DNA of 64,000 bases. Origin: Thuidium tamariscinum (Eukaryota > Streptophyta > Bryopsida > Hypnales > Thuidiaceae). Both the position numbers and the translations under genes were made by a program. Positions 16,468-50,751 of the stretch are shown here, piece by piece. The stretch covers positions 10,664,001 through 10,728,000 of the forward strand of contig OX344752.2 in the NCBI GenBank assembly GCA_947034885.2, given 5' to 3'. A model generated the notes under the pieces. The model saw only the letters and a list, made by a program, of their open reading frames with translations. It was not told where the DNA came from and did no database searches. Each line of letters starts with the position of its first letter. Positions within the stretch are counted from its first letter, which is position 1.

Positions 16468-18715
16468 GGTGTACACTATTTCTCACCCTCCTTATAGCGG
16501 CTCATTATGAACTGGGTCCTTAATTGCTTCACAGTTTACAGCTTTGCGTGCCGGAGTCAGAAATTGTTCCCGGCTGACACGCAGGTGCACACCTGTAATT
16601 ACTATCTGACCTGCCCGCGGTAGAAGTAAGACCCTGCTGCCCAAAGGAAAAATGTACCGTTTCAGTCCCAGTGTTCTGGCAGGGACTGACACAAGCGGTT
16701 CTCCACTGAACCTGCCGTGGGAAGGGCTGGAGGGGCCTGGCATGGGGGTGAACCATGCCCTATCATGCGCATGTATGCCCATGCCCATGCCTGCTTGTTT
16801 TTTCATCACGAATTCAGCACTGATGCTCATTCCAGTGTTTCACTGCAGTCAGTTGGTCTATAGGCAACGGTTTTGGTCGGCTCATATTTTTGCTTGCTAC
16901 GGTCTACATGTTTACCAGGGTTGATCTGCCGGACATTGCGACATCGCGACAGACAGACGTCACGCAACGTCTAGTAGAGCCCTCGTGACGTCTCATTGAC
17001 TAAAAATCAAGTTGACTTAAAAATAAATCATTATAAATTAAGAATTTTGACATATATAAGTTGGGTTTCAATTAAGTGTTTCAATTTTATGAATACATAT
17101 TATATTCTTCATTTAGGTTCATAGTAATAGTAAGATTTTCATTTTTTTGAGCTGCTGAAAATGGACTTTCGCGACGAGGTGGGACGCCCTTCGTAACAAG
17201 TTGTCACCGTGACACGCAACATTGGACGTCGTACACGACACCCAAACCCAAAAATATGTTCGACAAGACAACCCTGATGTTTACTTTAAAAAATTAAAAA
17301 TTTTGTCCCGTTAAGTACTAAATTTATTCATAAATTATACTGAAACCATTCTTCTCGCATACAATGTTTGGAAAAAGGTGTCAATATCCTAAACCCATCA
17401 AACATTTGGAGAGACATATATAAATTTTTTTTATTACATTTAGAATTATATAGAGATAAATTTTCACATATATACATAAATATTTAAATGCACACGCATA
17501 TGTTTTTATCTGTCATGCGATTCACCCAATAAAAGAATGCATGCATGTATTTGTGTAAGGACTATCTAGGATACCAACTCATGGAAATCCATGACGGGTC
17601 AATCCTTTCTAACCCAAAAAATGCTCAAAATTTCCATTCCTATACCAACTAACATGAAAATATAAATAATCTGACTTCCTTCACATCCAACAACACCATG
17701 TCATCCGTAACTAGTATGCAAATGCATAGAATTCATTTCAAAATTTATGCCCACATACATCGCAACATTTAGCACCGTGGGAATTTTATTTCCTTGCACC
17801 CCTAATTTTTTTCCTTGAATTCATTTTCGCTTACCTAGAAGAAAGAGCGGTTTTACACACCCCATTGTTTTCTTCATCCACTTCCCTCTCCACAAGCTTC
17901 GGTGGTTCGTGCTAATTTTCTTGTTCTTGTACACCTCATGTTTCGTTCTTTATCAAATTTCACTTAACTTAACGATGATGTTTTAGTACACGCAACACAC
18001 ACCATTTTTGTGGTTCATCCATTTCCCTTTGTGCAAGCTTTTGTGCCTTGTGCCCTTTTATTTCCGGTTATTGGTCAATATATGTTTCGCCCTTTAAAAC
18101 ATTTCACTTATGTTAACCATAATGTTTTGAGGAACAACTACACACCCCATTTTTTTTGGTGATCCACTTCTCTTTGGGCAAGGTCTAGGGGCTTAGGCCA
18201 ATTTTTGGGTTTGTAGCCACCTTATGTTTTGCTCTTCTAAACATTTTCCTTCATCAAAATTGTAATGTTTGGGAACGCACTATACACCCCATTTTTTTTA
18301 TCCATCTATTTTCTTGTGTGCTAGGTTTAGGGTTCTGAAAAATTCTTGGATTTGTAGTCACCTTATGTTTCGGTTTTTAAGACATCTAGCGGGATGAAAT
18401 TTTAAAGTCTTGGTACACACTACACACACCATTTTTTTTATTTATCTATTTCCCTTTGTGCTAAATTATGTGGTTTATTCATTTTTGGTGTTTATGGGCA
18501 CCTCATTTTTTGTTCTTGAAGACATTTTGCTTTATTTAAACCGTTATCTTCTCGTATACAATTGCACACCCTATTTTTTGTCCTTCATCCACTTTCCTTA
18601 GTGGAACGTTTTGTGCTTTATGCAAATTTAATGGGTTTGGGTCACCTTCTATTGTGCTCTTTATAACATTTTGCTTCATTAGAACCAGAATGTTTGAGTA
18701 CACTCTATATATAGT
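16468..18715 (+). repeat. Left terminal inverted repeat of the giant MULE
   Basis: It matches the reverse complement of about 49490-50751. The outer 448 bp (16468-16915) is unusually GC-rich and nearly identical to the right end. The next part is AT-rich, and the inner part (about 17840-18715) is a degenerate minisatellite of about 120 bp units. It is longer than the right copy because of the hAT insertion at 16916-17276 and a segment at about 17545-18165 absent from the right copy. One CAGTGTTTC motif lies at 16833, 365 bp from the end, mirrored at 50378 on the right. Confidence 0.85.
16916..17276. mobile_element. 361-bp non-autonomous hAT element inside the left terminal repeat
   Basis: It begins CAGGGTTGATCTGCCGGACA and ends ATATGTTCGACAAGACAACCCTG (last bases shown as ACAACCCTG), giving imperfect inverted termini of about 22 bp. 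The 8-bp duplication ATGTTTAC flanks it exactly (16908-16915 and 17277-17284). The empty site is visible in the right terminal repeat, where ATGTTTAC occurs once. It has no coding capacity. Its terminus (AAACCCAAAAATATGT followed by CAACCCTG) matches the hAT end at 57447, so the element at 51-57.4 kb or a relative probably moved it. Confidence 0.92.
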
Positions 18716-19400
18716 ATACAATTTTTGCACACCCTATTCTATGGGATAGGCTACTAAGGGTGATGTACAGTTTGCTACCGTGGGAAATGTATGTCTTCTT
18801 TGTACATGGTGCTTATTTCTTTAGCATATTTTGGCTTAGGGTTTAGGCTTCAACAAGAAATACAAAAAATAAGAATACTAATTTCCTACTAATGAATGCT
18901 ACCAACCATGAATACCATATATTGACCAAAAATGACCAATTTAGTTCCGTACTACAATTTCACTTTGAATTTTTCATTGTACAAGGCTCTGGTGTACTTT
19001 AGAAGTTAATGAATTAAAGCAAATCTTCAATGCTAGCAATACCAACGTATGAAATTCCAAAGAATCTTGATTGTTTATTCGAATATGTACTCTATGAAAA
19101 CATGTTGCATACAAAAAATTACAAGTGTTACAATTACGCAATGAAAGATTTGATATTTCTCATGGCAACTTTTTCTTTCTAGTTTTAAGTAAAAAAATTG
19201 TTTGAATGATTTTGAAAACAATGTAAAAGACTAAATTCAATTCACATTTTCTTTTATTGACCGCTTGGAAATGGATTTCATCCTCCACGGTCTAAACAAC
19301 TACTACAAATCATGGTAATAGGTACTAAGGCAAGCTTCTTATTATTGTTGGGATAATGTATTTTTTGTGTTCTGGAATCCCAACTGAAGTGTTTCGTACT
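18716..19400. other. Spacer between left terminal repeat and gene A
   Basis: AT-rich, with one TTAGGGTTTAGG (about 18837) telomere-like motif. No coding frame. Confidence 0.5.
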
Positions 19401-20303
19401 GAAGAAAGCTTTGCCTTGCTTCGAGTGGAGGTTTGGAGTTCACCAACCCTAATCCGAACCCATGTGGAACTTCGAAAGTAGGCTTAGCTGCCATTTCGTC
19501 GACTAACGCAGAGCAGTGTTTTGATTTACGGATCGGAATGCTGCTCCCTGTTTTTCGACATTTCCCTTCGTTGCCTGCAGTAGCGCTTCCACGTTTCCAG
19601 CGTAGCGCTTCCATGCCTCTTCTTCATGATGTTTTGCTTTAGCAGGCACTTCAGCGAGTGACTTAAGTTGTCTCGTCAGGGGGGTAGGGTACTCAAGCAC
19701 TCCCGTAAACTTCATATAGCTCGTAAGACGTTCATCGGAGGCACAAATCATGAATACTCCAGCGGGCGCCGAATTGCGGAAGGACGTCTTAGCTTGTGCT
19801 TATCAAGACAGCAAGATTGGACACCCTAGTCCAAAGTGGACATCTTTACTGTCCTTATTTGCACAGGTTCTATTTCTGCCGATCCTCTTCTTCTACAGGG
19901 CTTCAGTTTTTTCACTTACTTGCATTGCATTTCCGGCCTCTGAGCGATGGAAGGGAAGGTTGAACGCTGTGGTCAAAAGTACTCCACCAGGGTTTAGGGT
20001 TTAAGGGCAGTAGTGGTATCGGGTACTGTAGGGTAACTTGTTTGTGTTCATAGGCATCGACAACTGCTTTTGCGTTAGCCATGTGGAATGACATTTGTTT
20101 CTGTAGGAGTTGTTTGTAATTTGTGTTTGTGCTGCGGCTGCTGCAATGAGCGATAGTGGAAGGTAAAAAACTGAGTTGAGGGCCATGAAAATTTGTGGTG
20201 GCTTTAGGGTTTAGGGTTCAATAAGAATTTTATAGCTCTTGCACTGTTCTTTAGCAACGTCTCTGCTGCCCAATCTAAGTGGGTAAGTTTGAATTCTTTG
20301 CAG
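19400..20303 (+). promoter_or_regulatory. Gene A leader with telo-box cluster
   Basis: Telomere-like motifs GGGTTTAGGGTTT (19988) and TTTAGGGTTTAGGGTT (about 20200) and the reverse type ACCCTAATCC (19447) cluster here. Similar clusters precede the other three genes of the element. A short coding-like stretch (about 19750-19868, ending TTGCACAG before GTTCTATT) resembles the equivalent region of gene C (about 48361-48230). It may be a first exon, but I could not reconcile the phases. CAGTGTTTT occurs at 19514. Confidence 0.45.
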
Positions 20304-23300
20304 GGTTGGATTCCCTTACCCAGACCATTACTTTTACTATCGGCCAGTGTTTCGTTGGGGTGAGCAGATAGGGTGGGCAAATTGGTTTACTGTTGTTGAC
20401 CTTCGAGAGGAGGTTCATTGCTCTTCCTGCAAAATGACAAAGCACACGCACACAACGATTGCTGCAGATGGTGCACTGAGGCATTTCGAAGGAGATGCAA
20501 CCACCCATGGACAGCCCGACAATTCTAAGGTATGCAGTGTCACGGTGCCTGGCTTCTGTGAGCCCCTCGTGCTTTCAGAACATTGTTATCTTTGGTTTAG
20601 GGTCCTTCCACGTTAGTGAAATGGCATTGCTTTGGAATAATTAGTCCATTTTTCTGAAATGGCTTTCCTTTGGATTAGCAGGCGGCCCCAACAATAGCAG
20701 GAGCTGAGGAAGAAAAGCGTGCATCGTTGAATGACGACTTTTGTCAAGCTGTCACCATCGACAGTCGAGTTTACAATGTCAATTACGGGTCAGCTGAAGA
20801 GTTTGCCAAGCTTTTGCACGAATGTGCCACGGACGCAGTTACAAACATACCACGCACTGTCGACCCTGTACGTTTTTTTTTCCAGTGCATTCATTGTGGA
20901 GACCAGACTTTCACAAGCAAGAACCGACTGAACCATCATCGGTTCATGTCTCAATGTCCTGCCGTGCTAGACGACACTGGAAACCCTAAGCGGATGTTGC
21001 CATATCCAGATCAAGGGTCAGGACAAGGCAAGAAATCTGAAATGATTCGGAAGGGGAAGGCCGTGGACGTGAAGACAAAGCTGGTCCGAAAGAAGGGCAC
21101 CAAGAGTGGGGAAGCTTCGGCTAAGGTCAGAGTGGAGCCTTGTAAGGTGAACAAGGAGGCTAATATGAGTCCGGGGGGAAATGAGCCAAGTCCTTCGGCA
21201 AAAACCCTGACAGCAGTTGTTGGGGACGGTAGCACACCAGCAGAGAAGAAAGCAGGCGAGGGAGGTGGTGTGCGCTTCTCTGAGGATACTACGTCATTGG
21301 GAGGACTCCGCAACACTACGGCCGGGAGTAATATGGAGGACAACACAAATGACAGTCAGAAAACTCAGCAGCTGGAAACGCAGGTGCAGGTCACACTGGA
21401 TGGGCAGGCTGTAGGAGGAACAGTGTCACAGATTGTATCGGAAATGAAGGCAAAGAAAACTCCTTCCGTAGAGTTAGTTGATACTATTGGGGATTCTCGA
21501 GTTCATAAAGCTACAAAGACGTCCATGACAGGGCAGAAGAAAAAGAATCAATCAAAGGGTGATTCCAAGCAAGGATCAGCATTGAATAGCATTGCGAAAC
21601 ACTGCACAGGACCGGACAAAACACCGCCGAGGAGACGACGCGTTCAGGTACTGCTCTCTGATAGTGAAGACGAGTCAACGCCGGACATTGAACCTACGAG
21701 TTCACCAGCACCCTTGACAAACCAGCCAGACGTGCCTAGCGAAATCCCAGACGAAGGACCTCCGTTGTCACCACATGACGTCTTTGAAGGTGTTATAGAA
21801 GAAAGGTGCGTGCAGCAGGAAGATCTCGCGGAACATGAGAAGGAGCCTACCCCTGCTGTCTTAGAACGTCAACGGTGCTCTACTCCAGCCTCTGAGCAAG
21901 AGCCAATGAAAGCCGCTGTATCTACATTGCAACAGTGTTCTACTCCAGCACGGACGCCGAAGACCAAGAAAGCCGCAGCCACTAGACCGCAGCAACGTAA
22001 GAAGGTAGCTAAGAAACCTGAAGAACAATCATCTCCAAGCCGGAAGCAGAAAGCGGATTCTGAAACTGTATTACATGCAGGACCACATTCCCCTACTGTT
22101 ACACCGGACAGGAAGCGAGCGAAGAGGGCTGATGACTTGGCGATAGTGGAGTGGACAGGTAATTACGAAGGAAACCATGCCTTACATCGTTATTGGCTCA
22201 CCGGTGTTGGTTCTGCAAAAACCAAAATGTGGCATCCTGAGTTGGCATATTGTACATCTGGTTGACTTGAGTGTTTAAATACAGAGGAGCAGGAAGCGAA
22301 GGCAGTTGCTTGTGTGAAGGCAGATGCATTGGCATTGTCACGCCATAGTCCTAAACCACCTGTCAATTGTGAGCCTCCATACTTGTACCACTTGGTGAAA
22401 ATCAGGCCACAGTTGTTAGACTGGGCGTGGGAGGGGCAGTCAAAAGTGCAGTTCTAGGAGCGGTTTGCTGAGTCTTGGAACTCAAAAACATTCCAAGCTG
22501 CAACCAAGGAGTGTGTCATGTGGTGGTCGTGTGAGGCTAAGGTATGACATAAATAACTTTCTTTTTGTGAAACAGATGTGATTCGTATCATGTTTTGTTG
22601 TTGCTCTCCTTTGCACTTCCAACCCGTATCCATTGTTTTATATTACAATTACTTTGTGCATGGAATGAAGTACCCTATGTTGGCTTGCATAAGTTTGGGC
22701 TCCTATAGGGCCAGTGATGTAGATCAGTGAAAATATATTTAACCCTTCATTTCATGCAGGAGGAGGATTACCCAGAATTTTTTGTAGCGGTTGGTGTAGC
22801 TGTGCAGTCCTTGTGCCACAGTGTAAAGTATGGAAAGGTCCCCCCGGACATCCCACTTTTTGGCAAGTACTTACAATACATGAGAGATCTTGAAGAGTAT
22901 GAGGAGAAATGTCAATCTCATGCCATTGAGTTGAAGGCGGAGTAAGAACGCTTTGTAGAAGATGCGGTTTTGGAATTCCGTCAAGCTACAGGAATGAAGC
23001 GTGAGGCTCTTGTGTGGGATTGGTGCCCCATTTGGTATGTTGTATCGGAGAGCAAGGAGTTGCTTGCAAAGCTGCCCCCGCCCCCTTGGCGGCATGATGG
23101 TAAATACTGACCTTTTCTTGTCTTCCATTTAACAGTTGTTTTAGAATGTGCATATTCATTCCTTCAGTGTTTCACTGTCATACATGTACTGTACCTGCGA
23201 AATATATAATGTGTGCCTTGCCACACAGATGAGGAGGCTGAGGAGGTTCGACGCATGATTCTAGCGAAACCTTTCACTCGAGTAAAGCCCGCAGCTTTTG

Positions 23301-24110
23301 TGCAAGTTTTGCGGATTGCACTCCAGAACGTCTTTGGTAGGTGGAGACAAATGACTTGCCCCATTTTTGGGCTCAGTCGTTCACTTCTTAGAACACTGTG
23401 CCATAGGCAAAGAGACATCTTGATAGCCCTATCAATCTTTGCATTCGAAGCACCTTATCGGTTTTCAGGTATGGCATCTTACGAGTGGGACGTGCTACAC
23501 GCATCTGTCATGAAGGACGCAGAACTCGTTAGCAAGGGAAAAGAAGGGCGAGTTCTGGATAACATCGTGCAGTGGCTCCAGCACGTACGGGTGCGCGCAT
23601 TACAAGACCTAGCACGTGATTACCCAGTGGCATTTAGGGTGTGTTGGATGACGACCAAACATGAACATTGGGGAGAGCAGGCAAAACATTGGTCTAAGTG
23701 CCTCCGATTCTGTGAGGATTTTGACTTGGGTTGGGTTCCGGGCACTGTGGCGCCTACATGGGCTTCTAGAGTGAAAGAGATCCGTACAAAAATCGTGGAC
23801 CTCATGAACTGTATGGAGATGGCTTGGACTGAGGATGAAGATTCAGTTTGGGCCAAATACCGTGCAAGTACTACACAGTGTCTGGAGGAAGCCAACAACG
23901 AAACACTGGAAGACTAGTCTGAAACACTAGCCCCGCAAAATTCATCCGATCCAGTGACCTCGTCGCACAAAGGAAAGGCATTACAAATTGATGACGCTTG
24001 CACCCAACCTCTCACCTAGACAATCTTCCCATCTCAGAGACAGCAACGGTTTTGGATGGGTTATCCTCCTTTGAAGAAGGTTCCAGTGTTTCGGTAGAGA
24101 GGAAACTATG
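20304..24110 (+). pseudogene. Paralogue A: zinc finger/ULP1-like cargo gene, truncated
   Basis: Exons by comparison with B and C: 20304-20529, 20682-about 22540, about 22760-23099, about 23228-24005, then a remnant to 24110. Exon 2 encodes the C2H2-like finger (CIHC at about 20891, then H and C residues ending SQCP) in a conserved block of about 110 residues. A basic, low-complexity linker follows. Stops interrupt it at 22263 (TGA), 22456 (TAG), 22943 (TAA), 23915 (TAG) and further on. The protease domain is almost gone: sequence encoding the linker joins directly to the KVPVFR...GNYEC region (about 24077-24115), losing the catalytic His and Asp. This paralogue is closer to C than to B in the finger block. 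It cannot make the full protein, though a truncated zinc-finger product to 22265 is possible. Confidence 0.8.
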
Positions 24111-25010
24111 AGTGCGATTTATTCATAGTGCGTATATGTTGCCGTGTATGTTTGTGTGAGGAAGACACCTATCTCCCTGTGCACTGCTTTTCTTAGTGGG
24201 TGCCTGACTATCTTTACCTTATAAGTTACTTGGACAACAGTATTGCTTCTTTGTATGGAGCTCTGACAGTCCGTTTCTGTCTGTGCAGGTGGTTATAATG
24301 TTTCACCACATTCTCTGTGGAGTGTTTCGCTTCAATGGAATTCCCTTTCACCATGTAGTATTTGTAGTGATTGGTAACGTTTTCTTGGCCAATAGCAGAG
24401 CATGATTGAACTGCTTGTGACGTATCTGTTTTAAACCACCTTATATATTTTGTACTACAATGTATGTAGAACAATTTATGGGTGTGTGTATAGCTAGGAT
24501 GGACTCCACATAATTGCGACATTCTGTAGAATTGCATACCAAGTCCAACCTAATGGATTGGAATATGATATGGATTGTTTACTAATTGAACTCAATGTTA
24601 TTGATGCTGTAGAAGGTTTAGTTTATCAATTAGATCAATGTAATTGGGACCTTGCCAAAGTAATTCTGTATATATATGGCAAGGAACTTTGTGTTATGTG
24701 AGAAGTAGGAACATATTACCATTTAGGACTAGCCTGACATTTACACGAAGTTGATGACGCATTGTGTGAGCTTTAGGGATCATTTTGTTCCTTCAGTCTC
24801 TAACTTCTAAACTTGGACTTGTATATGGTCATTGCACAATGGCAAGGGAGGGATCCTGTGGTCAATGTTTGTGTGTACCTTTGCTATATGCATCATTCAT
24901 GCATTCTAGTTCTGCCTTCTTTAAGTGAGGGTTCTATTATGACCTTAACGCATGGTAGTGAATGTCGACTGACTAATTTCTGCAGACCCTTTACTTGTTT
25001 TGTCGAAAAG
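24111..25010. other. Intergenic region between convergent gene A and the transposase gene
   Basis: No supported gene. CAGTGTTTC occurs at 24084 just before it, and the transposase 3' end faces it. Confidence 0.5.
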
Positions 25011-25013
25011 GTA

Positions 25014-25203
25014 TCTATAAATCAGTGTTCCACATCATTGCATGACTGGGCTGTACTTTCATTTATAAATCAGTGTTCCAAATCAATGCATGACTGGGTT
25101 GTACTTTCATTTATAAATCAGTGTTCCAAATCATTGCATGACTGGGCTCTACTTTCATTTAGAAATCAATGTTCCAAATCGTTGCATGCCTGGGCTCTAC
25201 TTT
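25014..25203. repeat. 48-bp tandem repeat, 4 copies
   Basis: Units of about 48 bp begin AATCAGTGTTCCA and contain TTGCATGACTGGGCT and TACTTTCATT, at about 25014, 25062, 25110 and 25158. In one frame they read as a 16-residue repeat, but there is no other sign of coding. Each carries CAGTGTTCC, a near-match to the dispersed 9-mer. Confidence 0.8.
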
Positions 25204-25615
25204 GATTTAGGATTATAGAGAAGCATCTCCAGTGTTTTGCAATCATAACAACGTTGACTTCGGAAGCGCGTACTAGTCATTGATTACAAACATGACTTGT
25301 TTCTGTGAAGACTATGCATAACGGTTCCTTCAAAATGAAATCATAGCATAATTAAAATGCAGTTCAGGAGTCCTTGAGTCTGCCATATCAAACATTGCTT
25401 AGAAGATTTGTTGCCTATGAAGTGCCTCATCATACAAGTTTGCAGGGAATTTGAAGAAAAGCAAAGTGTCACGACAATAAATTTTTTTTTTGCATCCCAC
25501 ATATGAAATGGTAAGGTGCTTCATCCTCAAATGCTCACATACAGTACAAGTGAACTGTACTCTAAGCGCTTGTGTGGAGAAAAGATGATGGCAATCAAGC
25601 AGGACGGTTGATGCC

Positions 25616-28600
25616 CTAAAGCAGCCTTCTAGATGCTCGTGATCTTCCCCCACGCTCCAGCATGTCTTTCAGGCGTCGCAGACGCATTCCCAGACCATCT
25701 TGCACTGTATGAAACACTGGATTCGATGTCGTGGGATGGATGTTACCTGACTCTATCTCTGTTTTTAGCAGCTTCAATTTTCCAAGTGATCTATTAAAGT
25801 CTGCTTGCAAGTGCTCCATCAGAGTCACATCCCCGTCAACAAACTCAAGCAGGTCTCTAGCTTGGACTTGTAAGTTGAAATGTGGGTCTACGTGCTGCCG
25901 TGACGATGGATCCAGTGTTTCAGGCGCCAGTGGCGAATGTGGAGAGCATGACATTGGTGTTGGTGTTGAAGGCTCAGGTTGTACTCTTCCAAGAGTAAGT
26001 AGATCCCTTGTTTCGGCTACAGCTTTCCCCTTCAGTCCTATGCAATACCTTGCGACAGTCCCTTCGGCTACTAGAGGATGAAGAAGCTGCAAGATCTTGA
26101 GCTTGTGTTTACAAGTGTTACCTTTCTGAGCATGGAGGCAGTTGCAGATAGCCCACAACTCACCTGGATTGTGCACAATATACTGCAGATGCCTATGGCT
26201 GGAGGATGTCACGTATGCTGGGCCCCCATTCCATTCTGGTAGTGTCACATCGCTGTCGGGAATGTCCCGTGCTCGGATAAGTGCAGAGACAACAATGTTT
26301 TGCTCCTTTTTATTGGTAACGAATCCATACCGCTTACGCACTTGCTCATACCAGTAGTGCGTGAGTACATCCCCAGTGAGTACGTGGATGCACCAATCAA
26401 CACGTCGACCTGTCAACCGACTCCTCTCAGCCTTTAGAATGGACTTCATGTAGCCATGATAGTTCTCTATTGCTGCATTGGTGTCCTGTCCAGCATAAGG
26501 GAGATTTCTGTAACCAACTACCCACATGTGAATTTTTGGCAACCACTACTTTGTCATGTAATCCCAAAATTCGTTTGCAGCAGGGTACAAAGTTTGAAGC
26601 TGCTGCAATTTTTGAATAGCCCACGTACTAGCATCATTTCCTGCCGGAGCATCACGGCCGTACATGATTGCTCCAAGGCCTTGAAGGACCTGGGCGCGTA
26701 GAGGTATGTCGTGTATCTTGATGCAAGCCTGTTTTTGCCATGCCCTATGCACGTGCCATAAGCAAAGGAAGATTGTAGTGGACGGCCATACAATCCTACC
26801 AAGCGTCAAATGAAATTAGTGAATGATTTGGGATGGACCTTCAAGTATTCTCTAAGGCAGTTTCATGTTACCTCCTACGGATGGCATGACGTTACTTTCA
26901 ATATTCATTCATGTGCATGACAAAAGTATTGGCAATCAGAAATCAATGTTACAGAAGTCATTTACAGCAATGAGTTGTTCAAACAAAGGGACCGAGTGTT
27001 TTGGTCCTACCGCAAACTATTAATCTCTCCCTGTGCACAGTCGACAATGAAGGCATTTGGTTTCCAAAGAGGGCTCTCCTTTTTCATGTTGTCATCCAAT
27101 GCCCGCATCCAAGGAGTCAAGTCCTCTTGAGCGGATCGCGATGTCACAATGAAGGCCACGGGAATGCCATTGTGCCAATCATCAAAGACCATGACAGTGT
27201 AAAGAGGAAACTGCATTCAGCAAACAATTCAGTATTGTAGAAGATCCGTGACACATGGACGAGGACCATGAACTTTGAATGACAACAGATGCTATGTCAC
27301 TTTCAAGAAATTGAAAACTAGAATCACTGAGAAGCAAAACAGTACCTTCTTTTCATTTGTGCCGAACGTGGCATCAATTGAAACTGCACTTTCATGTCCA
27401 AACTTCAGCATCATCTCCTGTTGCCACGGTGTCTGAATACCAATAGTGAATGGTATATTGGTAGGCGTGAGACCTCCTTGTACAACACTGCCTGTTTCTT
27501 GGTAGAAGAAAACAGTGCCCTTGTTTTCCTGCACCCACATGCGAACACTTTTGGCGTCTTCACTGTGCAGCATGTACGTCTCCCGTGCAACCTTAGTTGC
27601 CAAATTGCGGACGTCACGCTCGTGGAGGAACATATCCCTTGTAACCTCCTTCTTTTCTTGGAGAGCTTCTTTCACCACCGCTATATGTTTCACCATAATT
27701 TGTGCCACAATCATTCCACTCCTTAAAAGAGTGACAACAAATTCCTTTATTTCAGAGGACAGTTGCCAAGCAAGAGCACTACGATCACCACTATCATGTA
27801 AGCCATGACACTGCACCCGGTTCTCATTGACATGGTCTGCCTCATAAATGCAAATCTGAGTCACATGTGGAAGAAATAGAAGAGTTTTCACAGAGAATGA
27901 TGCCAAACAGCCACGCTTTAATGAGGCCCCCCATTTTTTCAAAGAATCACGCGGCTTAGGGTCCCTGTTTCTCGTTACAGAGGTAGTGTTGGAGTTATTT
28001 GTAGTGCTCCCAACTTCTCCTTCTTCCCCAGCGACAGTGTCCGTTTCCAGGGTTTCTTTGTCCGAGCTGCAAGTATTATGAAGCACTCCAGAAGAGTTCA
28101 ATGATAAAACAGTATCCACTTCCTGTTCGCCCTGATTGTTCACCCTTGGGCAGCCTTCAACCACGACTGGCACTGGTAAGGAAGTGGAAGTGAACCCACT
28201 TTTGGAGGCAACAGATTCAGTGTCACGAATGTGCTGTACTGCTGGATCATGGCTACTTTCCTCCACAGGAATAACATTGAGGTCAATCTCGACAGGAATT
28301 ACGTTGAGGTCCAAGTCCGAAGTTCCAGCCTTCACCTTTCTTGCCTTGCGTTGCGGTCGTTGAACACGCTTGCAGGGAACTGGATTCTTCTTTCGTACAG
28401 GCCACCTTTCCTTTGAGTCAGTAGGTGATACACAAGTGGTGCTAGGAGGATGAAGTGTTTCTTCTTGCAAGAGGTCTTCAGCTGGAGAATTCAAATCAAG
28501 TAGAAGTTGGAACTGACTGCAGTCTAATGTGCCACACTCGGATCTCTGTACTTCATCGCTTTGGGCTGAAGGGTCATGCAGCGATTTAGAGATGTCTGGC

Positions 28601-38990: not shown

Positions 38991-39249
38991 CCACCTTTTC
39001 CGTGCACTGTACGGAATGCCGTATGCCGTCTCATCGATCGACAAAAGTGGATTCATTGAGGCTCGCAGTTGTCCAGACCTCACTCCAAGGCGACGTCATG
39101 CATGCCGAGCGTGCCCCAGCCACCAAACACTCTAAAAACCGAATGTCGTTCTCAAACTTAGAGCCATCAAAAATTGAATTTCCCTATAAAATTTGGTTTA
39201 TGGCTGCCCTAACATTTGATTTCCATACAGTCCTCATATAAAAAATCTA

Positions 39250-41750
39250 AATGCATCACAAATTTCCAAGTTTTCTGCCAAACACTATGATTTTCTTAGA
39301 AAATAAAACATATATGTCAATGAAATTTATTTATTTTTTACGACATGAAAAAATAGGTCTCAGAGGAGACATCAAAGTATATTTATGACTACATATTCCC
39401 TATATAAGAGTGCCATAAATGTTCCGAGAGCATAATCTTTTTATTCCCCTATAGCACATTGGAATGATAAAGAGAAATCTATATGCTAAAAAATTCTATA
39501 TTTGAGGGTACGTGTGCATAAAAATGTAAAAGAAAGAAATGGGTTGCGTACTAAAAGTTTTTGAAGCAAAATGTGTGCAGGAGGAAGAAATGGGCACGCC
39601 ACTGAAGCCTGGTCCAAATGAAAACAGATCTCTGCAGAAAATGGTGTGTGTACTAAAATATTTTAATTGTCCTGAAGTAAAACGTTTGAAAGAGAAAATC
39701 ATGAGGTGTCGAGTATCCAACTACATATAGAAATTCCAAGTGCATCCACCCTAATATGAAGCGAGATGGATAACCCCCCAAAACGTGTATGTGTATAAAA
39801 AAAATTTGGTTTAGATAGAAGAAAATGTTTTAAGGAGCAAAATGTGACTAGTCAAGAAACACAGAAATGTCCCCCCCCCAAAAAAAAAACTTGAAAAGAA
39901 CAAAATAGATCAGTAGACCAAACGCGGTGTGTACATCGCCATCTTGGTTTATATGAAGGAAAAGGCTTAAAAATACAAAACATGAGTTGTAGAAGAACCC
40001 AGAAATTGCCTAAACCAACTAACATTTCATAAAGTAAGATGGATGACCACCTAAACCAGTGTTACTGCAAAAATGTTTTGGTTTCGATGAATCCAATGTT
40101 CTAAAGACCGAAACATGAAATGCTCTAGTACAAGAATATTCACAGACCACCTAACCTTGCAGACATAAAATTGGATCACCTAAAGAACTGGGTTCCACCT
40201 AACCTTGCAGAAAGAAGATTGTATCACCCCAAAAAATTGGTTCTGTAACAAAACATTGTGGTTTACGTACAGGTAAATGGTTGAAGGAACGAAATTTGAG
40301 GTGTGCTAGAACAAAAGAATTTGCACAAACCATGAAATGTTGCACTAGGGAAAATGACCCCCAAAAAAATGGGGTATATACTTTATAACCGAAAATTATG
40401 TTTTAGGATTACCAAAGAGTTTCAAGGAACAAAACAGGAGGTGTCAAAGACCACAAAAATTTCCTAAACAACGAAACCTTGGGTAAAGGAAAATGGATCC
40501 CTCTGATAAATGGTGTGTGCAGTATACAACAAAACACGAACCTTTACAGAAGTAAAACTTCTCCAAGGACTAAGCATGAGGTGACTAGAATCCAAAAAAT
40601 TTGCACGGAGCACAAATTTCATCACAAAGGAAAGTGGATCATCGAAAAAAATGGGTAGTACACTCTGAACCAAAACATTTTGGTTGTGATCAAGCACAGT
40701 GATTGAAAAAACAAAACACAATGTGTCCAAAAACCAAATTTTTTTTAACAGAGCTGAAAATTTGAACAAAGAAAAGTGGATCACCACAGAAATTGGGGTG
40801 TGTAGTGTGTACCAGAAGTCATAAACAGAACGGTTGAGATCAAGCAAAATGTTTTCAAGAATGAAATAAGAGGAGACCGAGAACATAAACAAATTACACA
40901 GACCACGAAACATTGCACAAAGGAAAATGGATGAACCCAAAAAATGGGGTGAATATTGCATACTGTGTAACCTACAATATAATGGTTTACTTAAGAAATA
41001 TTTCTTTAACAAAGAAACATGAAGTGTAGAAGAACTAAAAAATTTGCACAACCCACCAAACCTTGTGTGGAAGAAAATGCATTGAGGAAGAAATGGTATT
41101 TGTGACAATGCTATTTGTTATTTTTAAGCCAAAATTTCTTTGAAGAAAAACATAAGGGATGCAAGTAAAGAAAAGTTTCACAATACTAATTCTTGTGATG
41201 CATGTGGGCAAAAACGTTTATATTATTTCTACCTGTTTTCATCCTACTAACGGATAACATGCTATTGTTAGATGTGAAGAAAGGAAGATTTAAAAAATTC
41301 CCATCTTTGTTGGTATAGGAATGGAAGTTGTCTGTACTTCTTTTGCAAGAAAGGATTGACCCTTCATGGATTTTAATTTTTTGATATCATAGCTAATCCA
41401 TATATACATACATACATGCATGTACACATTGTTTTTCCTGGAGAATCAAAGAAAAAAGCAAAACATATGTGTGTGTGTATATATATACATATTTGAAATT
41501 CTCTATATATATCTTTAACTGTTTGATGGGTTCATTTCATTTGACACCTTTCTCGAAACACTGTATGCATGAAGAGAGGTCTTAATATTCAGGAAATAAC
41601 ATTTCTTGAGACTACTCGAATTTTTTTTTTGAATTCCTATTCAGGGAGACTTGTAGACCCAAATAGGGAAAAACATGAGCCGCCTAACCCTTGGTCACCA
41701 AAACCCTAGCCATTGTTTACATCTGACGGCAGTGAAACACTGGAATACAT
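39250..41750 (+). repeat. Terminal-repeat-derived internal block 2
   Basis: About 14 diverged minisatellite units of about 120 bp (39.53-41.17 kb), then sequence aligning with the body of the right terminal repeat: TGTTTGATGGGTT (41521), TTGACACCTTT, AAACACTGTATGCA, and CAGTGAAACACTGGAAT (41730). The outermost 365 bp, including the GGTGTACACT end, is missing. It lies upstream of gene B in the position the right terminal repeat has for gene C. Confidence 0.7.
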
Positions 41751-42588
41751 TTAGGGGGCGATGAAAGGTGTGTACAATGGTAGTGGTTTCTTGTACGCAA
41801 AAGTCTACAATGTCTATTTTTTTTTAAAATGTAGTCACATACATTATATGTAAACCTCATACCATCTAAATAAAACCTTGTGTCTATATGAGCCAACCTT
41901 TGCCTTGCTCTTAGGATCTCACGAAACGCTGAGTTTCGTGTCATGCACTAAGAAGGGGCGAGGTTGGGTTACTGGTATCTTGCTTGAATTAATGTAGAAA
42001 CAACTATGAAGTTAAAATAATGCTGAATTTAATGAGGGAAAAGTCCATGTGATATTCCAATACACAAGCCACATTGAAAGAATTCAATGCTGCGGAAATG
42101 CACTTAAAACAAAATATAGCCTTGCAGTGAAAGCAGGTGCCCCTCAATTGCTTAGTATACAGTGTTCTATAGTATATATGTACGATGGTTTAGTATTGCC
42201 ACGTTATAAGCAGTTCAATTATGTTTCACTATTAGCCACTGAAATGCGGTCTGTGACAATGAACAAAAAATAGTTGGCAGCCAACTCTCTCACACTGATA
42301 CACTACGCTAAAAAGAGTTGAAACATTAAAACACTATGCACAGCCACAAAGGATTTGGCAAACCACGAGACATTGAGGGCTTCCTGTCAAACAATTCTCC
42401 TTGGAAACTAAAAAAGTTCAACTTGCACTTACAAAACTCATCCGTAGTAAAAACGTTGTGTTCTCCACCCCAATATGCCAACAAACATACTAACACCTCC
42501 ACTACATATCCAGGTCGTCAGCTTTGTCCTCTACCAACTACGTTACCGAACTATGAGCTTCAAGAATTCATCCCCTTGATGATGGACC
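41751..42588. other. Region between internal block 2 and the 3' end of gene C
   Basis: AT-rich. A perfect CGAAACGC-TGAGTTTCG hairpin-like stretch is at 41930. No gene supported. Confidence 0.45.
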
Positions 42589-45500
42589 CTAGACTGCTCG
42601 AAACGGAGGCTCGTAAAGCCCACACTCCGAAGTGATGCTCAACTCATTTGCAATTGCACGGATGACATTCTTCTGCATAGCAGCAGGCTTTCGTGCACAC
42701 ATAACCTCAGCGCAGAACATTGTCTGAGCCTTCTGCACAGGCAAAGGGGGTTCATCTATATGGAAGAAACGAATGTACAATTCCATGAAGCGCAGCATGA
42801 AGAACCCACACTCGTAGTTGCCTCTCTGACGAAACATTGGCACCTTCTTCAAAGGGGGATTTCCAAACAAAGGGGGCTCATGTACAAGCTTCCAGACTTT
42901 CCATAAGCGCTCCGCATGCTCCTGGTGCTCCGACTTCCTATGCAGGTTTGCACTATCTAGGTGCATGAATGAGGACTCTGTTAAAATGAACAGGGAACAA
43001 TGTAAATTGTTCATATATGGCACCACCACTGTGAAGGTCTTTGGGCACTTCATATATATTCTTGAGGGGACAAGATATTGCCGACCCCACCTAACCAGTT
43101 CATCCTCCACCTGCGACTCCCAGGCTGGATGTAGAAGACCTTGCATAAGTGAAGAAGCTATGTAAACTTGGCCTCGTGCCTCTGTTGACAAGCTCCACCA
43201 AAGGCGATGACATAAAAGCTCCACGACATTCTGTCCCAGCATCTTTCTTCCCCTTTGCAGATCTTGGATTTGGTCTATTGGCACTGCCAGAGACTCCGAA
43301 TCAAATCCAAAGAAGTTGATAGTACTAGTAACTTTGTGACATGCAGCCTTTTTGTACACGTCATGAAATCAACAATCAGTAATCCAATTTTTTGGAAGTT
43401 AGTGTTTTGCATGGAATAGAACTGCAGGATAAGGAAAAGAAATAGAGTACCTGGGCAAGGCATCGAGGAGGTCATCCACCTTGAAATATTCATAAGTCTT
43501 CTATATAGAAAGCCTGGAGTCACGCGTCTCCATGCAATCAACCATGTTTTGGGGGGGGAATGTCACGCTTTTTGAATGCTCCACTCTCTGCGCACTCACC
43601 GGGTCTTCTGTAACCACCATGTCTTGCAGAATTTCCAGGTCGTCACTATCGTGAGTATCATCCTCTTCTTGCAAACAAATCTCTGGAGCTGTACTTGCTG
43701 CGGAAGCGAACTCAACAGTCATGTTTCGTGGAGTAGCAAGCATGGAAAACCCTTTTCCCTCGGCAGAATCTGGCTCTGTGCCTACCAAAAACCCCAAAGT
43801 CGTCGGCGTCTCTGAGATGGGCAAACCTTCTAGGTGGAGATCTTCGGTGCAAATGTCATCCATGCGTACTGCGTTCTGACCCTCCACTAGGTCCAACGAC
43901 TCATAAGATATGGGCGGCGCTTGTATCTCAGAGGGTTCCTGCAGTGTTTCATTCCCTGCTTCCGCAAAACACTGCAGAGTAGAAGCGCGGTAGTTCGCCC
44001 AAACTGCGTCTTCATCTTCACGAAACGTTGTCTCCATCGAATTTACAAGATCAATGATTTTCATACGGGTCTCCCTCACCTTTTTAGCCCATGTGGGCGC
44101 CATTGTATCTGCAACCCAACCCATGTCAAAGTCCTCACGAAAGCGGAGGCACCTAGACCAATACTTTGCTTGATCTCCCCAGTGTTCATGTAGGATTGTT
44201 GTCCAGCACTACCTAAATGCAACTGGATAATCCCGTGCAAGGTCTTGCAATGCACGCACACGGACTTGCTCAAGCCAATCCAAAACGCTATCCAAAACTC
44301 GTTCTCCCTTGCCCTCGGTAACAAGTTGTGCGTCCTTCATGATGGTAGATTGCAACAAGTCCCATTCGAAAGATGCCATACCTGCAAATTGATAAGGTGC
44401 TTCAAAGGTGAAGGCGAATACGGCTAGCATGATGTCTCTTTGCCTAGAGCAAAGAGTTCTCACAAGCGAACGACTGAGGCCAAAGACGGGACAAGCCATT
44501 TGCCTCCACCTTCCAAAGACGTTATGGAGGGTTATTCGCATCACTTGCACAAACGCTGTCGGCTTTATTCTAGAAAACGGTTCTTCAAGGATGATGCGCC
44601 GAACCTCCTCAGCCTCCTCGTCTGTAATGCAAATCCAAGTTCACATTAGGTAGTTTTCGTTCCACATCTTATTGTGACACTGTGACTGTGACAGTGTTTT
44701 CTCTTTAACACTGTGACATTATGACAGAAAGACAGTAATGCAATGAATAATGGCATAATGAAGTAATTCCTCCTACAAAGAACAGTGGCGGTTATCACTA
44801 ACCATCATGACGCCAGGGTGGCTGCGGTAGCTTTGCAAGTAGCTCTTTGCTCTCTGAAACAACATACCAAAGAGGGCACCAATCCCACAAAAAAGCCTCG
44901 CGTTTCATTCTCGTGGCTTGACGAAATTTAGACACAGCATCCTCAACCATGCGCTCTTGCTCTTTCTTCAAGTCAACAACATAGGACCGACATTTCTCTT
45001 CATACTCAGCAAGATCTTTAACATACTGTAAGTATGTCCCCAGCAATGAGATGTCTGGTGGGACTTTTCCATATTTCACACTGTAGCACAAAGAGTTTAT
45101 GGCATGGCCAACTGCCACAAATACGTCTGGGTAATCCTCTTCCTGTCAGAGAACAAAGGACGCAAAAAATTAGAGCGATGACATGCATGGAAGATTGGAG
45201 CGCGAGAAATCAATACCTCTGCTGTCGCAGATCTGCAACAGTGCACTTTCAACCATGCTGGAAATTGCCATAACACAAAAGAATGGACGCTCTTGGGAAG
45301 TGAAAAATAGAACCAAAATCAGACACTTCAGAAATTGTAGATTAGAAACAGAAACTAAGGTCAACATTATCTTACCTTTGCCTCACATGTCCACCACATG
45401 ACGCACTGCTTGGTTGCAGCTTGGAATGTTTGAGAGTCCCAAGAGTGTTGAAACTGGTCCTTAAAAGCTTCTTCTGATTGCCCCTTCCACACCCAGTCGA

Positions 45501-47765
45501 ACAACTGTGGCCTAATTTGAAGCAAATGGTAGATGTTTGGAAGCTCACAACTGATTGGCGGTTTAGGGCGGTGGCACGATTCAAGCAAAGCATCTGCCTT
45601 TACACGGGCAGCCATCCTGACCTCCCGCTCATCACGATTTAGACGCTCCATTCGTCCGGACGTGCAGCCTGCTAAGTCTGGATGATACATTTTTGTCTTT
45701 GGAGAACCCCGACCGCTTAGCCAGTATTGATGTAAAGCATAGTTACCTTCGTAATTTCCAGTCCACACCACAATCGCTGATTCATCAGCACTCTTTGGAT
45801 GCTTTTTCGTTGGCGAAACACTGGGCGAAAGTGGTTCTGGCATAGTTTCGGTTTTCAAACCTGCTTTTCGTTTCCGCATTGCAGAAGACTGTCCATGACG
45901 CTTTGAATCTGCCTCGCCACACTCTAGAGGTTTAGGCGCTTCGTCTTTCTTGGTTACAGGCTTCGGTGCTTCAGTAAAACACTGCGGAGGTTCAAATGTG
46001 GTGCATATTTGGGGCTGAGGCTTCTGTGGTACAGGAGAAGACTGTTGATCTTGTTGGACTATGGCAGAAGGGTCCAAAGCATCTTCATGTTGGACGCCCT
46101 CCTCTTCAAGAACACCTTCAACAGGAGTGTCTTCAATGAAGTCCATGTGCATCATCTCTTCAAAGGCATCGTCTTATGACACTGCGGGGTCTTTGGCCGG
46201 GAACTCCGTGTCCACATCCGCCATGCCTCCAGAACCCTGCTTTGTAGGTGACTCGTCCTTGCTTTCATCTGAGAGAAGTACACGGCATCTTCTTTTCTTC
46301 AGTGGTGTCACCTTTAGTTCTGTGCATTCCCCGGCAAGGACCCTTGATGTTGACTGAGTCCCTACATTTTGTTTCGATTGTTTCTTCTCCTTCTGCCCTG
46401 TTATATATGTTGTTGTTGCATCTGCCTGACTCCCAGTACCCCAAACAGGATCCAATGCTTCTCCAATAGGCTTGCTCTGAGCCTTCAACTTCGAAGCAAT
46501 TTCCAACGCAGTTCTACCCGCAAGCTGGACATCAGGGTCAAGTTCCAACGCAGTTCCACCCGCACGCTGTACAATTTTGTGGCAGTGTTTCAGAGTCGAC
46601 CGTAGTGGCTGATGGACGTTTATTTCTTTCCTCTTTGCACTCCTTGTCTTCTGGAAGTCCCTATCGGTACATGCAGTCCCACTCCCGGTCCTACTGTCAC
46701 GCGTCCCTTTCGCCGGTGTTAAATCATCGGAAAACCGCACAGTCTTCTGCTCCTGTGTACTCTGAGGTGCACTTGTCTTGTTATCAGCACCTTTGTTGTC
46801 ACAGCACTTTGACTGTTCTTTCCCTTTCACATTACCCGTATTGTCTCCCTGTACCGTCTTCTCTGTCCTTGCTCCACCACCCTGAGCAACTTCTGCAATT
46901 GTATTTGTCGATGGTGATTGTCTGGTTCCCTTCCGAATTGTAGTAGCCTCCTTCTTGGCCTTGAAGGGCTCCACTCTCACCTTTGTTGAAGCCATCGCAT
47001 CCTTAATGCCCTTGTTTGTGACAAGCTTCATCGCCACATCCACGGACTTCCCCTTCCGAATCATTTCGGAATTTTTTCCTTGACCTCTCCCTTGATCTGG
47101 ATAGGGCAACATGCGCAAAGGATTTCCTGTGTCATCTAACACGGCAGGACACTGTGCCATAAACCTGTGATGGTTCAATCGTTTTTTGCTGGTGAAGGTC
47201 TGGTCTCCACAGTGAATGCATTGGAAAAAATAGCGGACGGGGTCAACAGCGCGTGGTATGTTTGTAACAGCATCAGTGGCGCATTCCTGTATGAGCTTAG
47301 CAAATTCTTCTACTGAGCCATAATTGACGTTGTAAACATGACCATCTATCGTAAGAGCTTGACAGAAACCCTCGTTCACTGAGGCAGCCTTTCCTTCGGG
47401 AGCTGTCGTAGGTGATGGAGATGGTATCTGCTCCAAAGCAGCGCCATGTCAAAAACAAAGGAGAAGGTGGCCAGTACCAAAAGATAACAACATACAAGGA
47501 AGACTGAAGCCAAGAATAGTAGACTGAAACATTGCATACCTCCGACTTTGTAGCCTCTCCACCCTTCGCCGCATTTCCTTGCAGCTGCTTAAGTGCACCA
47601 ACTGTGCCAGTCGTTGTCTGCTCATGCCTTGTCATTTTGCATGAGCAATAGGGAGCCACCCCTTTGAAGTCAGCAGTTGTAAACCAATTCGCCAAACCAA
47701 TCTGGTCACCCCACCGAAACACAGGGCAATGATAAAAGTAATAGTCCGGGTAATGAAATCCAATC
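42589..47765 (-). pseudogene. Paralogue C: zinc finger/ULP1-like protease cargo gene, three stops
   Basis: Exons (minus): 47765-47540, 47427-45376, 45142-44803, 44621-43451, about 43345-42589. The finger block (QCIHCGDQTF...HHRFMAQC) and linker are like gene A. Stops interrupt it: TAA at 46176-46174, TAG at 44211-44209 and TAG at 43503-43501. The C48 domain retains His (LHCSLF), Asp (MHLDSA), Gln and Cys (RQRGNYECGFF); the Trp after His seen in B is Cys here. The protein also ends earlier than B. It lies next to the right terminal repeat and is transcribed away from it. The last acceptor site is uncertain. It probably makes no full product, but the zinc-finger part to 46174 is open. Confidence 0.8.
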
Positions 47766-48660
47766 CTGCAATGAATTCAAACGCGGGCACTTAGAGGGGG
47801 CTGTAGGAATACTTCTAGTTCACTGTGAAAGAAGGCGATGGTGGATCAATAATGAAAAATTGAAGTCAGTTGTAGAAGAAGGTAGCTTGACAATTGGAAG
47901 TGAACTCCCGAACCCTAAATTTTGACCTCCCTGAGTCCCTGGGTTCGTCATTGGAGTAGCCAAGCTTCAAGCGGGGATAGCACTGAATCCATCAAACCCT
48001 AAACACCCATCTCAAATGACTGAAGTACAAGAAGCAATGTGTAAGCCCTAAACCGCAGCTACACCCAAGTGCCTCCCTTCATCGGCATACGCAAACAAAA
48101 GACAACAGCAATGTTTTTGAAAACGCCCGGCACCCTAAGCTTCCATCTCTCAAACGGAATAGACATAAAATCCAAGTGACGATGAACAATGAAGCGGCCC
48201 ACAAAACAAAAGAATGTGAAAATTGAACCTCTGTAAGCGAAGCTGGTGGAGGTGCCCCGCTGCGGAATTGGAGGTCCAATGTCGCAGTAGTCTTGCGTAA
48301 TGGGAGCGAAGAACTCCCACACTCCAGCACCCCTTCCAGCGATCATGATTGTGCCCTCCATTTGAACCTGAAGATGGTGGAAGGAGCACTCGAGTACTTC
48401 TAAACCCTATGACTAGGCAGTGTAAGTGCTTCCTTGAAATGTTCCACTTCAGTTCTACACCACTGGATCCTAAGGAAGGAGAACTTGCACTACAAAGACA
48501 AGTGCACCACAATGAAACCATGAATCGAACGAGCGAAGAAGAGCACAGCAACAAATTTCGCAAAACACTACCGCTGTTGCAAATGGAATACAGTGATTGC
48601 CGTAATTGCATTGTTCTAACACAGCAGAAGGGTTTAGGTTAGGTTTGGAATAACCAAACC
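47766..48660 (-). promoter_or_regulatory. Gene C leader with telo-boxes
   Basis: Contains GAACCCTAAATT (47919), CAAACCCTAAACACC (47994), GCCCTAAACCGC (48045), CTAAACCCTATG (48400) and GGGTTTAGGTTAGG (48631). A coding-like frame starts at ATG 48361 (MEGTIMIAGRGAGVWEFF) and aligns with gene A at 19.75-19.87 kb, so it may be the first exon. Confidence 0.45.
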
Positions 48661-49489
48661 TCCATCCGAAGTAAGGGCAGGCCTTCCAGTACTGTGGAAA
48701 CGTTGCTTTTAAATACCCAACTAAGCAAAGCATCAAAGTGGATGAGGTTGATAATGTCTTTAACGATTTATTGAATTTTTTTTTTTTTTTTTTTTGAAAA
48801 GTTGGTTAAAAATTTTATGTATGGTCCATTATTTCTGAAGTGCTCAAAGAAACAAAAAAATATATAATTAAATTTAGGTTCTTAGATTGTGATGAAGTCA
48901 ATTATACAATTTTTTGGCTTTGAAATATGAGTAGTACATCATCATAAGATATAATAATTGCTATATTGTGAACTAGTACTCTCTAGGGTTTTAATTGCAA
49001 CAATGAGTTTTAACAAACAAACAATAGAGAAATAATTGATATTTATTGGAATTTCATGAAGAACTTGGGTCAAATATTTCACCAAATTTATATTCCACTG
49101 TCCTATGCAATACACCCTAAACCCTAAAGTAGTACGGATGAAAATGTAAAATAGCGCTATAGAACAAGGATTGGCCTTAGCATTTAAAATATACCTAAAG
49201 TTTCTACAATTTCATGCAAGGGAAAAAAAATTGAAAGTGCACTATCACATTGGGCTTACAGTTTCTGCAAAATGTTTTAAATCATGCAACATGAGGAGTC
49301 CAAAAACTAAAAAAATAGCGCAAAGCACTCCATGTTGACGAAAAAATGGGGTGCGTAGTGTGTACCAAGACAAATGGTGTAGGTAAAGCAAAGTGTTTTA
49401 GAGAACAAAACATGAGGTGTCCAAGTGCAAAGAATTTTTAAAAAGCAAGAAATTCTACACAACTAGAAAAGTGGATCCCCCCCCCCCCC
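48661..49489. other. Spacer between gene C leader and right terminal repeat
   Basis: Includes a T-run of about 20 (48778-48797), a telomere-like ACCCTAAACCCTAAAG (49118) and the first minisatellite units from about 49290. No gene. Confidence 0.5.
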
Positions 49490-50751
49490 CAAATGGTGTG
49501 TGTAGAGTGTACCGAAACACTAAAGTTTCGATGAAGCAAAATGTTATAAAGAGCACAATAGAAGGTGACCCAAACCCATTAAATTTGCCTAAAGCACAAA
49601 ACGTCCACTAAGGAAAGTGGATGAAGGAAAAAAATAGGATGTGCAATTGTATACGAGAAGATAACGGTTTAGATAAAGCAAAATGTCTTCAAGAACAAAA
49701 AATGAGGTGCCCATAAACACCAAAAATGAATAAACCACATAATTTAGCGCAAAGGGAAATAGATAAATAAAAAAAATGGGGTGTGTAGTATGTACCAAGA
49801 CATTAAAATTTCATCCCGCTACATGTCTTAAAAACCGAAACATAAGGTGACTACAAATCCAAGAATTTTCGAAAACCCCTAAACCTAGCACATAGGAAAA
49901 TAGATGGATAAAAAAAATGGGGTGTGTAGTGCGTTCCCAAATATTACAATTTCAATGAAGCAAAATGTTTAGAAGAGCAAAACATAAGGTGGCTACAACC
50001 CCAAAAATTGGCCTAAGCCCCTAGACCTTGCCCAAAGAGAAGTGGATGCATTCTTTTATTGGGTGAATCGCATGACAGATAAAAACATATGCGTGTGCAT
50101 TTAAATATTTATGTATATATGTGAAAATTTATCTCTATATAATTCTAAATGTAATAAAAAAAATTTATATATGTCTCTCCAAATGTTTGATGGGTTTAGG
50201 GTATTGACACCTTTTTCCAAACATTGTATGCAAGAAGAATGGTTTCAGTATAATTTATGAATAAATTTAGTACTTAACGGGACAAAATTTTTAATTTTTT
50301 AAAGTAAACATGTAGACCGTAGCAAGCAAAAATATGAGCCGACCAAAACCGTTGCCTATAGACCAACTGACTACAGTGAAACACTGGAATGAGCATCAGT
50401 GCTGAATTCGTGATGAAAAAACAAGCAGGCATGGGCATGGGCATACATGTGCATGATAGGGCATGGTTCACCCCCATGCTAGGCCCCTCCAGCCCTTCCC
50501 ACGGCAGGTTCAGTGGAGAACCGCCTGTGTTAGTCCCTGCCAGAACACTGGGACTGAAACGGTACATTTTTCCTTTGGGCAGCAGGGTTTTACTTCTACC
50601 GCGGGCAGGTCAGATAGTAATTACAGGTGTGCACCTGCGTGTCAGTCGGGAACAATTTCTGACTCCGGCACACAAAGCTGTAAACTGTGAAGCAATTAAG
50701 GACCCAGTTCATAATGAGCCGCTATAAGGAGGGTGAGAAATAGTGTACACC
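49490..50751 (-). repeat. Right terminal inverted repeat of the giant MULE
   Basis: Inverted copy of the left repeat without the hAT insertion and without the 620-bp segment. A C-run of 12-14 (about 49479-49492) marks its inner side. The outer end is AGTGTACACC at 50742-50751. The 112-codon frame at 50389-50727 is mirrored at 16492-16830; since it exists only as part of the repeat I do not call it a gene. Confidence 0.85.

Follow-up and report, generated by a model that had tools for sequence, protein, structure and literature searches.

The question raised by this locus is why a single short word should recur throughout a large transposon of the moss Thuidium tamariscinum. The 64,000-nucleotide stretch of contig OX344752.2 analysed here (the window) contains a Mutator-like element in which a transposase gene, T, is present once and a second gene, U, three times, and the nonanucleotide GAAACACTG is found in this element at ∼74-fold the genome rate. 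The element is assigned to the Mutator-like elements (MULEs) because of its terminal inverted repeats and its 9-bp target duplication, the latter falling in the MULE range of 8–11 and being the signature of the group; 9-bp duplications are also present at the sibling copies C8:13783509 (exact), C11:4357476 and C2:19371710 (one mismatch each). The element and its genes, whose models are approximate and were built without transcripts, are listed below.

16467..50752, no strand: Mutator-like element, 34,286 bp, target duplication TTTTTTATT on both sides, ends GGTGTACACTATTT
16468..16915, plus: left terminal inverted repeat, 448 bp, 98% identical to the right repeat, containing the motif copy at 16833
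20679..23917, plus: U gene copy A (U-A), N-terminal exon 20679–22265, middle-domain exon 23210–23917
25616..30022, minus: T gene, putative MULE-type transposase, AT-hook array 27292–29724, SWIM-like end 25616–26545
32801..37837, minus: U gene copy B (U-B), C2H2-like N terminus 37184–37837, linker, middle domain 34383–35090, Peptidase_C48/Ulp1 32801–33772
42589..47448, minus: U gene copy C (U-C), laid out as U-B and interrupted by in-frame stops
50304..50751, minus: right terminal inverted repeat, containing the motif copy at 50378

The word and its concentration in T/U elements

The window holds 22 exact copies of GAAACACTG, of which 21 lie in the element (16833 to 50386) and one lies outside it, at 51570. 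An earlier interpretation of the bare letters (the sequence-only reading) had reported 20 exact copies and eight one-base variants in the element; the eight variants are indeed there, as AAAACACTG, and the exact count is corrected to 21. It had also placed a single copy in the rest of the window, as we find, and copies mirrored at 365 bp from the ends, which prove to be one site inside the 448-bp inverted repeat. The genome total of 3014 exact copies in 363.2 Mb predicts 0.28 copies per 34.3 kb, which confirms the over-representation, and a Markov model based on the composition of the element itself predicts 1.0 (maximum of 4 in 100 simulations), with no complex 9-mer rising above nine copies in the simulations. 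No 9-mer of the element is more frequent than GAAACACTG, which has 21 copies compared with 20 for an A/T run. The element further contains 35 copies with one mismatch, the eight AAAACACTG included, and the window as a whole contains 63 matches with at most one mismatch compared with 20.4 in shuffles.

The copies are distributed as follows.

16833..16841, minus: GAAACACTG in the left inverted repeat
20345..20353, minus: upstream of U-A, aligned to 38106 upstream of U-B
21596..21604, plus: U-A coding; CG form kept in siblings C8 and C11, TG form in C2, decayed in C6
23165..23173, minus: U-A noncoding, aligned to a TA form at 35092 in U-B
23900..23908, plus: U-A coding, aligned to 43942 in U-C
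24084..24092, minus: in what is left of the U-A Ulp1 part; BLAST by way of the C8 copy shows homology to 33115
25711..25719, plus: T coding
25913..25921, minus: T coding, common to relative L049
29801..29809, plus: T coding, common to L049, L054 and L048/L053
29927..29935, minus: 5' part of T, absent in three aligned sibling copies
33115..33123, plus: Ulp1 exon of U-B (PVFR)
34610..34618, plus: U-B coding, unrelated sequence at the position in paralogue C
35115..35123, plus: U-B, between exon blocks
38106..38114, plus: upstream of U-B
38980..38988, plus: noncoding
41555..41563, plus: noncoding
41734..41742, plus: noncoding
43942..43950, minus: U-C coding
45815..45823, plus: U-C coding
46583..46591, minus: U-C coding
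50378..50386, plus: right inverted repeat

As the sequence-only reading had described, the copies extend through the element in both orientations (13 on the plus strand and eight on the minus strand) and their spread is uniform (Kolmogorov-Smirnov P 0.95). By the approximate gene models, coding blocks contain 11 of the 21 copies, compared with 9.8 expected. No bias of position or orientation was detected within the element, gene starts show no concentration of the motif, and the sites are single, at an average spacing of 1.6 kb. A peptide repeat such as PVFR was considered as the source of the motif and rejected, because the 14 coding copies use all six frames and encode different peptides (ETL 4, QCF 3, VF 3, KHC 2, NTG 1, and SVS 1).

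The word is sharper than the 9-mer first described and is the 10-mer YRAAACACTG. All 21 element copies of GAAACACTG are preceded by C or T (P 3e-7), and a pyrimidine-purine (YR) step precedes 28 of the 30 copies of AAACACTG in the element (P 9e-16), the steps being CG in 10, TG in 11, CA in five, and TA in two cases. The resulting 28 YRAAACACTG sites are likewise uniformly spread, with 14 of them in coding blocks. A single-substitution matrix, built from five lineages with one representative each (50.4 kb compared with 102.8 kb of comparison DNA), revealed degeneracy at positions 1 and 2 only, every other change giving at most four copies compared with 30; a piece of the C6 sibling that carries one motif copy was part of the comparison DNA and reduces the contrast. 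As a whole word, GAAACACTG was not found in the openly licensed literature searched.

The motif is not confined to the element in the window but is shared by a superfamily of T+U elements in the genome. Genome searches returned 78 matches to T and 54 to U (Ulp1), mostly paired, whereas for other parts of U they returned 54 matches to the N terminus and 113 to the middle part, the latter often as several pieces per gene. Eight relatives outside the discovery family contain 25 copies of YRAAACACTG in 33.5 kb of T-region sequence (L045 2, L046 2, L047 0, L048 7, L049 2, L052 4, L053 6, and L054 2), L045/L046/L047 and L048/L052/L053 being groups of 93–99% identical copies, compared with two copies in 85.8 kb of comparison DNA, despite the inclusion there of eight loci chosen for carrying GAAACACTG. 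In their longest alignments, the T proteins of the motif-carrying lineages share 41–51% identity, with L054 at 76% over 215 residues. Two outcomes were named in advance as fatal to the sequence-only reading: unrelated DNA turned out to lack such a density, and related elements elsewhere turned out to carry the motif. Its description of an element-specific recognition motif is thus to be widened to the T+U superfamily, while a recognition motif of a transposon-encoded system stands as the best explanation.

Sites outside the discovery family were mapped relative to 64 other T/U clusters (fewer where only the first sites of a list were used), with a limit of 2 kb. For CGAAACACTGG, with all 75 genome sites included and 15 of them in the discovery family, 31 of the 60 outside sites are near clusters compared with 0.10 expected, and these 31 are distributed over 21 of the 64 clusters; with a smaller anchor set, 27 of the 60 lie within 10 kb of 52 clusters. 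The corresponding values were 8 of 51 compared with 0.08 expected for CGAAACACTGC (first 53 of 110 sites), 15 of 93 compared with 0.15 for TGAAACACTGG (first 100 of 157), and 8 of 96 compared with 0.15 for CAAAACACTGG (first 100 of 180). Four U N-terminal exons carry a site at the same end. At C6:20137642, 360 bp of the inverted repeat are matched at 85%, the match stopping before the motif position; no GAAACACTG is present in the 39 kb around it, and other parts of the element were not found there.

Candidate readers of the word and the origin of its copies

We consider it probable, at roughly 0.6, that YRAAACACTG is the recognition site of a protein of the T/U Mutator-like superfamily, most likely U, acting against silencing in the manner of the VANC proteins of Arabidopsis VANDAL elements. 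By recognizing many sites along the element, U would label elements of its own kind from end to end, with little else labelled, and the bound protein would counteract the CG and CHG methylation that silences the element. Active lineages would continually gain and replace sites, and silenced copies would lose them through ordinary methylation decay. The sequence itself shows the motif, its sharpness, its concentration in T/U elements, its repeated origin, and a methylation-type decay; the binding, the role of U as the binder, and the anti-silencing effect are inferred from these.

The most serious competitor, although an unlikely one, is that the motif copies are transposition sites or enhancers bound by the transposase T, with its AT-hooks and MULE-like character, and that U is uninvolved. 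Consistent with this, each inverted repeat has one motif copy, which is intact in six of seven aligned sibling ends, T is as widespread as U, and T has an AT-hook array. AT-hooks, however, bind AT-rich minor grooves, and the even spread of sites through the interior, with no concentration near the ends, disfavours subterminal transposase sites. Further, a mapped site was found within 8 kb of at least 30 of the 52 U-containing clusters compared with at least two of the 12 T-only clusters (Fisher P 0.022), an association that is confounded because the T-only clusters are mostly the most-diverged T genes or short fragments. Together these points weakly favour U over T as the putative binder.

Somewhat less probable still is that the elements exploit the binding of a host protein (a transcription factor or a chromatin or insulator protein) to the motif. 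Sequence alone cannot separate a protein of the element from one of the host, which leaves this alternative some room. However, a host site would sit poorly with the lack of genome-wide enrichment (3014 copies compared with 3239 of the reversed word), with gene starts in the element that are not favoured by the motif, and with the 31 of 60 CGAAACACTGG sites that follow T/U clusters outside the family.

That the copies were inherited from duplications, whether of paralogues, inverted repeats, or tandem repeats, is very improbable and is contradicted for most of them; the sequence-only reading, too, had argued that shared descent does not account for most copies. Some copies do have a common origin, namely those of the two inverted repeats and the pairs 24084/33115, 23900/43942, and 20345/38106. 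However, an alignment of the T region in five lineages (eight sequences, with L046 omitted as near-identical to L045) placed the motif at 15 distinct positions, only two of which are common to more than one lineage, which indicates that the motif arises repeatedly. Similarly, across U-A, U-B, U-C, and the C8 counterpart of U-A, the motif is found at 15 positions, of which four are common to at least two copies; one of these four positions is common only to U-A and its C8 counterpart, and the pair 24084/33115, missed by the U alignment, was added by BLAST through the C8 copy. None of the tandem arrays found in the window contains any of the 21 exact copies. Chance or base composition is a negligible explanation, given 21 copies compared with 0.28 or 1.0 expected and the repetition of the enrichment in relatives. 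A constant word at shifting positions is the trace that selection for a binding site would be expected to leave.

The siblings also show decay typical of past CG/CHG methylation. Over 27.5 kb, comparison of the window copy with C8 and C11 revealed C>T changes at 3.7–8.1% of CG, 4.4–8.7% of CHG, and 0.9–1.7% of CHH positions, which is the pattern of plant-type transposon methylation.

Comparison with known systems and the pyrimidine-purine step

VANC21 binds YAGTATTAY and the motifs of VANC6 are AGTTGTCC/AGTTGTAC, the words varying between families, and the sites of VANC21 lie densely in tandem repeats, share one orientation, and are mostly outside coding DNA (PMC5735166). VANC is opposed by RNA-directed DNA methylation at the same regions (PMC10398659). 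The system described here resembles VANC/VANDAL in that a MULE carries a transposase and a second protein; in its short word, with C/T-degenerate positions, which is concentrated in the element and rare elsewhere; and in the turnover of sites between related copies that are subject to CG and non-CG methylation. Conversely, VANDAL elements have no or degenerate terminal inverted repeats, whereas those of this element are 448 bp long, and where VANC21 and VANC6 differ in their words, one word is used here across lineages whose T proteins are mostly 41–51% identical.

Several observations weigh against an anti-silencing role of U, among them the confounding of the U association given above. The sites, unlike those of VANC21, form no tandem arrays, occur in both orientations, and include exons. 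DUF1985, a domain marked on VANC, was detected neither at E ≤ 1 in 10 pieces of the element nor at E ≤ 0.1 in two more (pieces that do not include the middle domain of U-C). Among the sites listed, 22 of the 52 U-containing clusters have no mapped site, and L047, one of the eight relatives, has none in the 4.3 kb examined. The reversed control (0 of 100 near clusters compared with 0.16 expected, for the first 100 of 156 sites) is about the chance expectation and so excludes a mapping artefact and no more, and the binomial P values of the mapping are overstated because related elements partly share sites by descent. Finally, of 19 majority sites, 16 survive in the window copy, 16 in C8, and 14 in C11, compared with 15.0, 15.9, and 14.0 expected from the context rates, so that no present selection on sites, only neutral decay, was detected in the three copies compared. 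Selection would thus have to have acted in active lineages, and this result argues against a present function in these copies.

Because several defining features fail, we do not class the system as a member of VANDAL/VANC. It is also like the MULEs that carry Ulp1, with a C48/Ulp1 gene beside the transposase and the catalytic residues present. Such elements have been described in angiosperms (Kaonashi/KIU of Arabidopsis, and melon, rice, and grapevine), and some VANC genes carry Ulp1, the elements concerned recognizing their own kind, according to a review (PMC13317346). Differences from the Kaonashi/KIU type are the C2H2-like N terminus of U, the long inverted repeats, three U copies in 34 kb, and a flagellar gene in the genome (Radial_spoke, with four exons matched above the cut-off at one locus), which argues for motile sperm and, together with the CHG-type decay, makes a moss or some other seed-free plant the likely host. 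The transposon proteins En/Spm TnpA and Ac transposase recognize short, repeated subterminal words, and TnpA has also been linked to demethylation; their sites are clustered near the ends, whereas those described here are spread over the whole element.

The details of sequence-specific anti-silencing by transposons are known from Arabidopsis, and a review describes studies of it in eudicots. PMC12859917 and PMC6446971 mention VANC in Arabidopsis and, in the portions available, not in mosses, and no VANC-like system of a seed-free plant was found among the listed titles and opening lines of abstracts in the openly licensed literature searched. If true, a VANC-like arrangement with another protein architecture outside angiosperms would imply that the strategy has a greater age or more than one origin, and a word that diverged families keep in common, where it might have changed from one family to the next, would be informative on the evolution of such addresses. 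With a word so short, so rare elsewhere, and so exactly defined, direct tests of binding and of how methylation affects it are possible.

The YR step itself could reflect either decay or recognition. At the CG end of the sites, 27 are decayed (TG/CA/TA) compared with 14 CG, whereas at the CHG end 16 are decayed compared with 41 intact (Fisher P 0.0004, with sites taken as independent, 28 of the 41 coming from the window copy, and CHG treated as one class). The decay products of the CG end are thus relatively ∼5 times commoner than those of the CHG end, although the average decay rates of CG and CHG cytosines are about equal, and most TG and CA forms are common to siblings. CpG decay alone is disfavoured as the source of the TG and CA forms by both observations, from which YR looks like tolerated recognition.

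Each of the CG, TG, CA, and TA steps offers a methyl or methylatable pyrimidine on both strands, T replacing 5-methylcytosine. The zinc-finger readers Kaiso/ZBTB33 and Klf4 accept mCpG and TpG (PMC6222495), and the glucocorticoid receptor behaves similarly (PMC8421226); Kaiso/ZBTB33 and Klf4 are animal proteins and serve here as a model for the tolerance of the four steps, with no claim of homology to the element protein. Taken together, the methyl-presenting steps and such readers suggest, as a speculative and rather doubtful extension, that the element protein reads methylated CpG, in which case the motif would serve as an address that deamination cannot erase, read best in a silenced element and guiding an anti-silencing factor to silenced copies. 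A plain preference for a flexible YR step accounts for the data equally well.

Other features of the element and its surroundings

In the window copy, T is interrupted by an in-frame TAG at 26546–26548. Its MULE-like strings DATFGTN, CLWHVHRAW, and TNAAIENYHGYMK were read by eye against MULE patterns, and Pfam returned AT_hook and a sub-threshold SWIM match and no MULE domain. A 96-bp repeat of ∼6.8 copies (28687–29338) encodes the AT-hook array (KPKRGRPKKT), which aligns to siblings in several registers and may differ in copy number.

The Peptidase_C48 domain of U-B passes the cut-off (PF02902, E 3.5e-5, 24.2 bits compared with 20.7), that of U-C scores 15.2 bits and lies under it, and the His, Asp, Gln, and Cys residues of Ulp1 are present in both. 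U-B has one in-frame stop, possibly intronic, and U-A lacks most of the Ulp1 part, of which a short remnant is left at ∼24052–24132. By sequence, no solved structure matched the U N-terminal alignment (E ≤ 1) or the Ulp1 exon (E ≤ 0.01), and the middle domain gave one chance-level match (E 0.64). The U-A block (18723–23942) is 78–81% identical to the C8, C11, and C6 siblings, compared with 91–97% for most other parts, and the C2 copy of the block is 88–92% identical to that of the window; this looks like the exchange of one U version for another.

Degenerate ∼141-bp repeats are present at 18000–18700, 40015–40990, and 49490–50047, and a segment of 86 bp that adjoins the left inverted repeat on its inner side (16915–17000) is found in at least 30 other places at 92–99% identity. 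The telobox-like word CCCTAAACC, with 12 copies in the element, is also strongly enriched there and in the siblings. GC-rich words around GGCCGTCGA/GACGGCCTC are repeated in L021–L030 (C8 and C2 copies) and L047 and do not rank with the top words in the window copy.

Immediately to the right of the element lie hAT-type transposase reading frames (DUF659, Dimer_Tnp_hAT; 51767–55171), and a protein-kinase-like reading frame of 557 codons (PF00069) occupies 5173–6846. Tandem arrays of GGGCGACCGCGG-like words were found outside the element at 569–724, 7079–7246, 51134–51540, and 57016–57195.

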